Assembly: GCF_002797495.1 (NCBI RefSeq)
Contig: NZ_PGEZ01000001.1
Location: 1,178,001 to 1,242,000 of the forward strand
DNA: 64,000 bases
Source: Mumia flava
GTDB lineage: Bacteria; Actinomycetota; Actinomycetes; Propionibacteriales; Nocardioidaceae
Direction: 5' to 3'
The notes under the pieces are model-generated. The model had not been told where the DNA came from and made no database searches. It saw nothing but the letters and a program-made list of their open reading frames with translations. The translations under genes and the position numbers were made by a program. Shown piece after piece: positions 3,280-38,829 of the stretch. How positions within the stretch are numbered: the stretch's first letter is position 1; each line of letters starts with the position of its first letter.

Positions 3280-3352
3280 TGGAGCTACGGGGATTCGAAC
3301 CCCGGACCTTCTCATTGCGAACGAGACGCGCTACCAACTGCGCCATAGCCCC
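3280..3352 (-). tRNA. tRNA-Ala (anticodon CGC)
   Basis: The 73-nt cloverleaf was read on the minus strand. Acceptor GGGGCTA pairs with TAGCTCC (one G-T). The D stem is GCGC/GCGC, the anticodon stem TCTCG/TGAGA with loop TTCGCAA (anticodon CGC, positions 34-36), and the T stem CGGGG/CCCCG with loop TTCGAAT. The discriminator is A. CCA is not encoded. It decodes the alanine codon GCG, common in this genome. Confidence 0.97.
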
Positions 3353-23835: not shown

Positions 23836-23908
23836 CGCCCCCGGCAGGATTCGAACCTGCGACACCCGCTTTAGGAGAGCGGTGCTCTATCCCCTGAGCT
23901 ACGGGGGC
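23836..23908 (-). tRNA. tRNA-Arg (anticodon CCT)
   Basis: The 73-nt cloverleaf was read on the minus strand. Acceptor GCCCCCG pairs with CGGGGGC. The anticodon stem CCGCT/AGCGG has loop CTCCTAA, giving anticodon CCT for codon AGG. The T stem GCAGG/CCTGC has loop TTCGAAT. The discriminator is G and CCA is not encoded. Confidence 0.97.
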
Positions 23909-37799: not shown

Positions 37800-37849
37800 C
37801 GTTGCAACGAGATAACCCGTTGTCCCGGGTCGACCCGGCGGCGTACCGT
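37800..37849. promoter_or_regulatory. Divergent promoter region with CGTTGCAACG palindrome
   Basis: CGTTGCAACG at 37800-37809 abuts the MFS -10 (ATTGTG as read on plus, 37794-37799). On the plus strand TTGTCC (37820-37825), an 18-base spacer and TACCGT (37844-37849) form a promoter that would start RNA near 37856, just before the leader ORF. Confidence 0.6.
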
Positions 37850-37881
37850 CGAGACACACAGGGAAGGAGGTGGTCCGATCA

Positions 37882-37920
37882 ATGATTGACGTACGGACTT
37901 GTGAGGTGGCTGCGCGCTAG
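37882..37920 (+). CDS. 12-codon leader peptide ORF
   Basis: ATG 37882 to TAG 37920 encodes MIDVRTCEVAAR. The ribosome site is exceptionally strong: AAGGAGGTGG at 37864-37873. The ORF's last codons form one side of an RNA stem with bases after the stop. Preceded by a recognisable promoter. The peptide has no domain. It is likely a translated leader that controls RNA folding, or the whole transcript may be a small regulatory RNA. Confidence 0.6.
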   Translation: MIDVRTCEVAAR

Positions 37921-38024
37921 CAGCTGGTGACGGGATCACTCGCCACCGCGCAGCGAATCCCAACGCAGTCACCCGACCCGCGGGGGCCGAGATCTTGTCC
38001 ACTCGGCATTCAACCCCGCGGGTC
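37909..38024 (+). promoter_or_regulatory. Folded RNA element following the leader ORF
   Basis: Two structures were read by hand. Stem 1: GCTGCGCG (37909-37916, end of the leader ORF) pairs with CGCGCAGC (37947-37954), with an inner TGGTG/CGCCA helix. Stem 2: GACCCGCGGGG (37975-37985) pairs perfectly over 11 bases with 38014-38024 and encloses GCCGAG/CTCGGC (37986-37991 with 38002-38007). Translating the leader would open stem 1. Stem 2 could terminate transcription. It ends 46 bases before map. Confidence 0.62.
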
Positions 38025-38070
38025 GTTCCGTGTCCGGACCCGGCCGCGCACCCCCGCGTACGCTGGCGTG

Positions 38071-38829
38071 GTGATCGAGATCAAGACGCCGGCCCAGATC
38101 GAGCGCATGCGCGAAGCCGGACGCGTCGTCGCCGACGCGCTCGCGGCGATGACCGAGGCCGCCGTGCCCGGCGCGACCCCCCAGGACCTCGACGAGGTCG
38201 GTGCCCAGGTGCTCCGCAAGGCCGGCGCGACCTCGCCGTTCCTCGACTACCACCCCGGGTGGGCCCCGACGCCGTTCCCGGCCTCGATCTGCGCGAGCGT
38301 GAACGACGCGATCGTGCACGGCATCCCGAGCTCCGACCCGCTGGTCGAGGGCGATCTGGTGAGCATCGACTTCGGCGCCCTGCTCGACGGCTGGGCCGGT
38401 GACGCGGCCACGAGCTTCGTCGTCGGCGGGGGGACCGACCCGCTGATCGAGACCACCGCGGCCGCGCTCGCCGCCGGGATCGAGCAGGCCCGCCCGGGCA
38501 ACCGGCTCGGCGACATCGCGCACGCCGTCGGCGCGGTGGCGCGGGCCGCCGGCTACGGGCTGCTCGCCGACCACGGCGGCCACGGGATCGGCCGCACCAT
38601 GCACGAGGACCCGCACGTCCCGAACGAAGGGCGGGCCGGCCGCGGCCTGAAGCTCCGCGCCGGCCTCGTGCTCGCGATCGAGCCGATGCTGATCGCCGGG
38701 GGCGGTGACGACTACCGCACCGACGCCGACGGCTGGACCCTGCGGAGTGCCGACGGGACCCGCGCGGCGCACGTCGAGCACACCGTCGCGATCACCGAGG
38801 ACGGGCCGCGCATCCTGACGCTGCCCTGA
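38071..38829 (+). CDS. map: Methionine aminopeptidase, type I
   Basis: 252 aa from GTG 38071; TACGCT lies six bases upstream, so map may also start from its own leaderless promoter independent of the leader ORF. It removes the initiator Met. Metal ligands are visible: SIDFGALLDGWAGDAATSF (two Asp), GGHGIGRTMHEDP (His), LAIEPML (Glu) and AHVEHTVAI (Glu). ICASVNDAIVHGIP carries the substrate His. No long N-terminal extension. Confidence 0.96.
   Translation: MIEIKTPAQIERMREAGRVVADALAAMTEAAVPGATPQDLDEVGAQVLRKAGATSPFLDYHPGWAPTPFPASICASVNDAIVHGIPSSDPLVEGDLVSIDFGALLDGWAGDAATSFVVGGGTDPLIETTAAALAAGIEQARPGNRLGDIAHAVGAVARAAGYGLLADHGGHGIGRTMHEDPHVPNEGRAGRGLKLRAGLVLAIEPMLIAGGGDDYRTDADGWTLRSADGTRAAHVEHTVAITEDGPRILTLP

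Follow-up and report, generated by a model that had tools for sequence, protein, structure and literature searches.

Ms_IGR-5 (Rfam RF02471) was reportedly first described by DiChiara in 2010. Published work places it in lists for S. lividans, S. avermitilis and M. smegmatis and provides RNA-seq support for the RNA in S. lividans and S. avermitilis. One study notes ribosome footprints on the M. abscessus and M. smegmatis homologues and cautions that footprints on sRNAs may be RNP artefacts (PMC4974804). No function is given for Ms_IGR-5 in the literature that we found, which consists of lists and this one footprint remark. Leader-peptide attenuators of the trp type, to which the mycobacterial Cys attenuators add further examples, have a short ORF whose end forms one arm of a stem, as does the element described here. 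CC2171 (RF01867) of the alphaproteobacteria likewise combines an SD matching the 16S tail with a short ORF and a terminator-like hairpin.

Here we analyse a locus in a window of 64,000 nucleotides from Mumia flava, the window being the whole stretch of DNA under study; features of the locus lie on its + strand. A sequence-only reading had proposed an undescribed regulatory element at this locus, consisting of a promoter, a strong SD, a 12-codon ORF and two stems in front of map.

Covariance scores place the element in the Ms_IGR-5 family

The Rfam search that had been suggested as a check returned a match over the whole RNA (37856-38031). It scores 121.3 bits against a gathering threshold of 45 bits and spans the entire model (positions 1-184), whose printed consensus has the same SD, ORF end and terminator. 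Judged by its covariance score the element is clearly a member of Ms_IGR-5, and the label 'undescribed' has to be dropped. It is the single RF02471 match in the Mumia flava genome. At an E value of 0.001, 50 of 58 relatives match (the Mumia flava genome counted in) and eight do not; across a sample of the phylum 70 of 396 genomes match, 326 do not, and 35 score above threshold. On these counts the distribution of Ms_IGR-5 is patchy.

We listed 179 loci for comparison, 59 found via the Rfam model and at least 120 via a DNA pattern that required GTGAGGTGGCTG but neither start nor stop. By title or kinship 174 of them belong to the Actinomycetota, while the titles of the other five name Acidobacteria, Blastocatellia or Zixibacteria; at least three pairs represent one contig twice (L006/L149, L007/L084, L016/L133). 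Orientation was automatic for 178 loci, and the 179th (L173) was inspected by eye. An independent set, not selected by the pattern, was obtained by fetching all 40 Rfam hits without a listed locus. These deep copies come from other classes of the phylum and score 25-57 bits, five of them above threshold. Pattern matches also occur in 57 of 247 genomes around an acidobacterial genome and in 31 of 80 around a zixibacterial one, many of them by chance, and six of 20 non-actinobacterial loci scanned exceed the Rfam threshold, all six in the zixibacterial group.

Layout of the element

Direct reading of the sequence locates promoter, SD, ORF and both stems at 37820-38031, in agreement with the sequence-only reading. 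The sigma-A-type promoter (37820-37849) comprises a -35 TTGTCC (37820-37825) and a -10 TACCGT (37844-37849) separated by an 18-nt spacer, and the RNA is read as starting near 37856. Box 1 (37861-37877), a hyper-strong SD (AAGGAGG), can form 17 contiguous pairs, G-U included, with the 3' tail of 16S rRNA. It precedes the short ORF (37882-37920; 12 codons, ATG...TAG, MIDVRTCEVAAR). Two segments of this ORF are predicted to engage in long-range contacts: GGAC in codons 5-6 (37895-37898), which would form a pseudoknot with the terminator loop and has an alternative partner in GTCC at 37873-37876, and box 2 (GTGAGGTGGCTG, 37901-37912), an SD-like motif whose 3' part would pair with box 3 (CGCAGTCACC, 37964-37973). 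Read directly, this pairing is stem 1, formed by GGTGGCTGCG at the ORF end (37905-37914) and CGCAGTCACC. A conserved AATCC motif (GAATCCCAAC, 37955-37964) lies immediately 5' of box 3 in alignment A1 (see below) and in non-actinobacterial copies, and recurs in zixibacterial copies as AAATCCCAAC. Stem 2, with 12 bp between CGACCCGCGGGG (37974-37985) and CCCCGCGGGTCG (38014-38025), encloses a second hairpin; together they make up the putative terminator hairpin (37974-38025) with loop GTCC at 37997-38000. The predicted fold of 37856-38070 reaches -101.6 kcal/mol (z -2.55; four of 200 shuffles are equally good). The window also holds two tRNA genes, both on the - strand (3280-3352 and 23836-23908).

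Promoter and genomic neighbourhood

The promoter is conserved across the family. Among the 172 listed loci with enough upstream DNA, a -10 is present in all 172 as against 1.2% of 3460 random windows, and a -35 in 158 as against 0.3% of these windows.

The gene map, whose product is a Peptidase_M24, adjoins the element in four of 178 listed loci, counted within flanks that in some loci end soon after, and lies downstream each time. These are the Mumia flava window, L008 from the same genus, and L069 and L078, both Cellulomonas. When genes are called in a simple way from codon composition, the next downstream gene shares the strand of the element in 85 of the 178 loci and has the opposite strand in 82, with no call in 11. 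Common neighbours are a heme-binding THAP4-like barrel protein, a pyridoxamine oxidase, a class IV aminotransferase and an MFS transporter, and among 37 loci from the acidobacterial and zixibacterial groups, compared over flanks of about 1.5 kb, no neighbour cluster is shared by more than four. On this comparison the element is free-standing and not a switch for map. The proposed link to map is not supported, read-through control of map finds no comparative support among the 178 listed loci, and a role as map leader was rejected on synteny.

Attenuation of map in cis via the leader peptide is, in our view, highly improbable. It would suit the four loci in which map follows on the same strand; such adjacency is however confined to these four, and map bears its own apparent leaderless promoter, as the sequence-only reading had noted, with a -10-like TACGCT (38059-38064) ahead of a GTG start at 38071 (38059-38073, outside the element). 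Moreover, the RNAalifold fold, a consensus fold only, contains no antiterminator competing with the terminator. Neither the same downstream gene across the family nor, in the codon table, a run of codons for a sensed amino acid was found.

Two side observations concern the same region. In the two Cellulomonas genomes map is directly downstream, and the order of element and map may be older than one genus. In Mumia flava a GTG soon after the stop of the short ORF opens a frame (37927-38829, +) that runs through the terminator and in frame into map; this frame is probably due to chance, because map is rarely downstream of the element.

The short ORF and the position of its stop

In 179 of 179 listed loci (L173 by eye) a stop lies exactly five codons past the GAG of the GAG-GTG motif in box 2, and in 178 of 178 an ATG, GTG or TTG situated 13-20 nt after the start of AGGAGG is in frame with GAG GTG. 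The stop triplet is TAG in 163, TGA in eight and TAA in seven of these 178 loci, and C follows UAG in 131; UAG-C is a slow termination context. TTG is the commonest start codon (92 of 178), and the distance from start to GAG varies from 6 to 13 codons.

This is further supported by the deep copies. GAGGTG is present in all 40, and in 36 of them (20/20 and 16/20) the stop follows at five codons (15 nt) after GAG. In the remaining four (L318, L322, L323 and L326) it follows 14 nt after GAG in a different frame, behind a TTG start in three and only an ATT in one; this lineage reads box 2 in another frame, a frame shift by nature against which the peptide idea can be checked. Near-cognate starts behind a very strong SD are a feature of half of the deep actinobacterial copies (L292-L331): 18 of the 36 five-codon copies have only CTG, ATT, ATC or ATA at the start spacing, and L292, also among the 36, has none of the start codons sought. 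Outside the Actinomycetota, 75 distinct readable matches divide into 50 with the five-codon stop, five of which are the same five loci counted among the 179, and 25 without; the next nearest stop is at 11. Defining true copies by their stop is circular, yet AGGAGG is found in 49 of the 50 as against seven of the 25. Four of the 50 have no in-frame ATG, GTG or TTG.

Taken together, these comparisons indicate that the short ORF is real, and the conserved frame, start and stop support the earlier view that it is translated. The comparison further indicates that the spacing of motif and stop is maintained to within a single base and that the frame of the motif and the peptide are not, because four deep copies stop 14 nt after GAG in the other frame. 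Box 2 and the stop are separated by a nearly constant distance, whereas the start distance, the last residues, the stop triplet and, in four copies, the frame all vary; this combination points to the position of the ribosome at termination and not to the peptide as what the geometry preserves. The preference for UAG and the GAG GTG motif could be explained by RNA pairing alone.

It had been suggested that the single Cys, Arg or Thr codon might act as a sensor, which is unlikely: among 171 listed loci codon 7 reads CGT 114 times and TGT 50 times, codons 2-4 are free to vary, and four deep copies use another frame. The idea of tRNA-sensing codons was rejected on the codon table. A gene whose product is the short peptide itself is improbable as well. 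Such a gene would fit the presence of the ORF in all 179 listed loci and the 40 deep copies, with near-cognate starts allowed (L292 having none of the starts sought), but residues 2-4 and the last two residues vary across the listed loci, and the four deep copies that read the motif in the other frame would yield an unrelated peptide.

An unverified fecal phage record (L269, MT835602.1) bears an Ms_IGR-5-like copy with a five-codon stop, in which SD, ORF, box 3 and hairpin are recognized by eye; this copy is perhaps phage-borne, or perhaps misassigned bacterial (actinobacterial) DNA. A phage origin was rejected, as none of 20 pattern matches in viral contigs has the stop rule.

Long-range contacts in the fold

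Alignment A1 comprises 64 actinobacterial sequences, namely 62 of 86 non-redundant ones together with L156 and L161, which were added for their unusual box 2. Its unsupervised consensus pairs the ORF end with the box before the terminator and also contains the terminator itself. In the box 2-box 3, terminator and start-codon helices combined, 96.6% of the cells are paired compared to 88.0 in shuffled alignments, and 164 cells are changed on both sides compared to 50.6; none of 500 shuffles, which ignore relatedness, reaches either value. Two-sided changes occur at four of the 10 box 2-box 3 pairs and at 10 of the 12 terminator pairs, and the variation in the helix round the start codon is one-sided only. 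When the hand-picked L156 and L161 are left out, box 2-box 3 retains two-sided changes at three of 10 pairs, with 26 two-sided cells and 599 of 620 cells paired. For 166 of the 167 listed loci with a located box 3, the helix shows 56 distinct pairs (z 6.8 over shuffles), the box 3 sites having been picked by fit to the consensus box 2 and not to each locus's own.

Based on these compensatory changes, the ORF end is paired with the box before the terminator. The claim that the end of the ORF is one arm of stem 1 is thus borne out by box 2-box 3 covariation, and compensatory changes among homologues, whose absence the sequence-only reading would have taken as refuting it, are many. In the Rfam model the first helix is instead box 1 with box 2, whereas the covarying helix here is box 2 with box 3, accompanied by a loop contact; across the whole family the Rfam helix is paired in 94.8% of cells, with two-sided changes at none of its six pairs, equal to shuffles. 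A hairpin round the stop codon (GCTGC/GCAGC) was rejected, since it shows no covariation in the 64 actinobacterial sequences and 78 of 500 shuffles score as high. By eye, RCU/AGY round the stop is apparently matched in many zixibacterial copies.

The contact between ORF codons 5-6 and the terminator loop is well supported by comparative evidence. All six loci with GGAT in the ORF (L009, L016, L064, L080, L133 and L144, two of which are one contig) have ATCC in the loop, and on A1 a two-sided change occurs at one pair, in three sequences. Across the 36 five-codon deep copies, exact downstream complements of the ORF segment have a mean maximum length of 5.47 nt compared to 4.48 nt for shuffled tails, where the highest of 300 shuffles is 4.94 nt. 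Among deep copies with a GGAC or CGAC core, a five-base complement is present in 28 of 34 and a four-base complement in 34 of 34, anywhere in 120 nt. The loop match also tracks changes by eye, as in TCGACC/GGTCGA (L177), CGACC/GGTCG (L301), TGGACC/GGTCCA (L293) and CGGACC/GGTCCG (L294).

All 27 zixibacterial copies without Ns have TTTT within 70 nt after box 3, which makes an intrinsic terminator the most likely identity of stem 2. An RNA that is free-standing, has its own promoter and terminator and keeps no fixed neighbour might be a classical base-pairing sRNA with box 3 or AATCC as its seed, the short ORF being incidental and controlling stability. We regard this as distinctly unlikely; box 3 is buried in the helix with the ORF, and the ORF geometry is more constant than any single-stranded seed.

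Complementarity to the 16S rRNA tail

The 16S tail was not found in the Mumia flava assembly. In two genomes of the genus and in one of the zixibacterial group it reads GGCTGGATCACCTCCTTTCT, within which the location of the mature 16S 3' end is assumed. The predicted duplex of box 1 with this tail extends over 17 positions and reaches -30.3 kcal/mol, compared to a median of -9.8 kcal/mol for 746 called genes. The median for box 1 is -30.8 kcal/mol, which none of the 746 genes attains (one edge-cut locus is void). The median duplex of box 2 with the tail, at -10.9 kcal/mol, resembles that of an ordinary SD, and 36% of genes are as strong. GAGGTG comes to an end six bases ahead of the last sense codon. 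For a ribosome with that codon in its P site and the stop in its A site, such a gap is the normal SD spacing; pausing at internal SD-like motifs is debated.

A median box 1 duplex beyond the strongest of 746 called genes would also be expected of an RNA that solely binds 30S or 70S particles through a hyper-strong SD, a weak start and a slow stop, thereby buffering or parking ribosomes, with the fold serving stability. The frequent TTG starts (92 of 178) and the 18 of 36 five-codon deep copies with only CTG, ATT, ATC or ATA at the start spacing fit this explanation, which nevertheless leaves the covarying box 3, the loop contact and the conserved AATCC unaccounted for. We consider it unlikely.

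Discussion

The best explanation, to which we assign slightly less than an even chance, is a free-standing translated RNA in which a ribosome waiting at the stop would keep a two-contact fold open and whose output would act in trans. Starting from what the comparison of homologous sequences supports (family membership, ORF, stop spacing, box 2-box 3 helix, terminator, promoter and the lack of a conserved neighbour), we infer pausing at the stop, switching of the fold and the output in trans. A strong promoter would produce an RNA of about 176 nt ending at its own terminator. The SD, which can pair with almost all of the 16S tail, would capture a 30S subunit, and 12 codons would then be translated. 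Once the stop codon is reached, the terminating ribosome may be held by box 2, the SD-like motif inside the ORF, whose distance from the P site is that of a normal SD. The held ribosome would block the pairing of box 2 with box 3, and a translating ribosome would keep codons 5-6 off the terminator loop. With box 2 hidden under a ribosome at the stop, and GGAC under one that is still translating, both long-range contacts would have to open. When no ribosome is present, both contacts would form and lock the ORF. In this way the RNA would report how easily ribosomes start and stop. The output is probably exerted in trans, by the exposed 3' box (AATCC...CAGTCACC) or by the held ribosome, and the action in trans raised by the sequence-only reading is supported as a possibility.

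For an orphan sRNA family this provides a revised structure, good support for its short ORF and a rule of geometry: in copies from three phyla, the stop comes 15 bases (in rare cases 14) behind an internal GAGGTG. The recurrence of SD, tiny ORF and fold beyond the actinobacteria suggests that the shape of the RNA is set by the resident ribosome. If the explanation favoured here is true, bacteria keep a free-standing RNA that reports on ribosome initiation and termination. A still wider generalization is possible but doubtful: an autonomous RNA class gauging translation across phyla (Actinomycetota, Acidobacteriota, Zixibacteria and perhaps CC2171 kin), in which an SD matching the whole 16S tail, often with a weak start, would be followed by a second SD that parks the ribosome at a slow stop, so that a pseudoknot is held open and a freed 3' box regulates in trans.

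In comparison with leader-peptide attenuators, the element has no codon run, no conserved downstream operon and no antiterminator in the consensus. In comparison with Ms_IGR-5 as described, the stop rule of the ORF, the box 2-box 3 helix, the loop contact and the strength of the predicted 16S pairing appear to be new; in the Ms_IGR-5 literature found we saw neither the rule for the stop nor the revised helix, the contact with the loop or the spread into other phyla. The family is named as actinobacterial, yet threshold-passing copies also occur in the zixibacterial group. RF01867 (gathering threshold 75 bits) has no match in the Mumia flava genome, and its best score among the related loci scanned is 24.6 bits. 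CC2171 differs in its longer ORF (VSHC...) and, by eye in four loci, in having no box 2 at a fixed distance from the stop. In plasmid records (L265-L268), alphaproteobacterial CC2171-like RNAs have an SD that matches the 16S tail, followed by an ORF for a VSHC... peptide, and in Skermanella (L268) the annotated gene upstream of such an RNA is hflX. Ms_IGR-5 is perhaps kin of CC2171.
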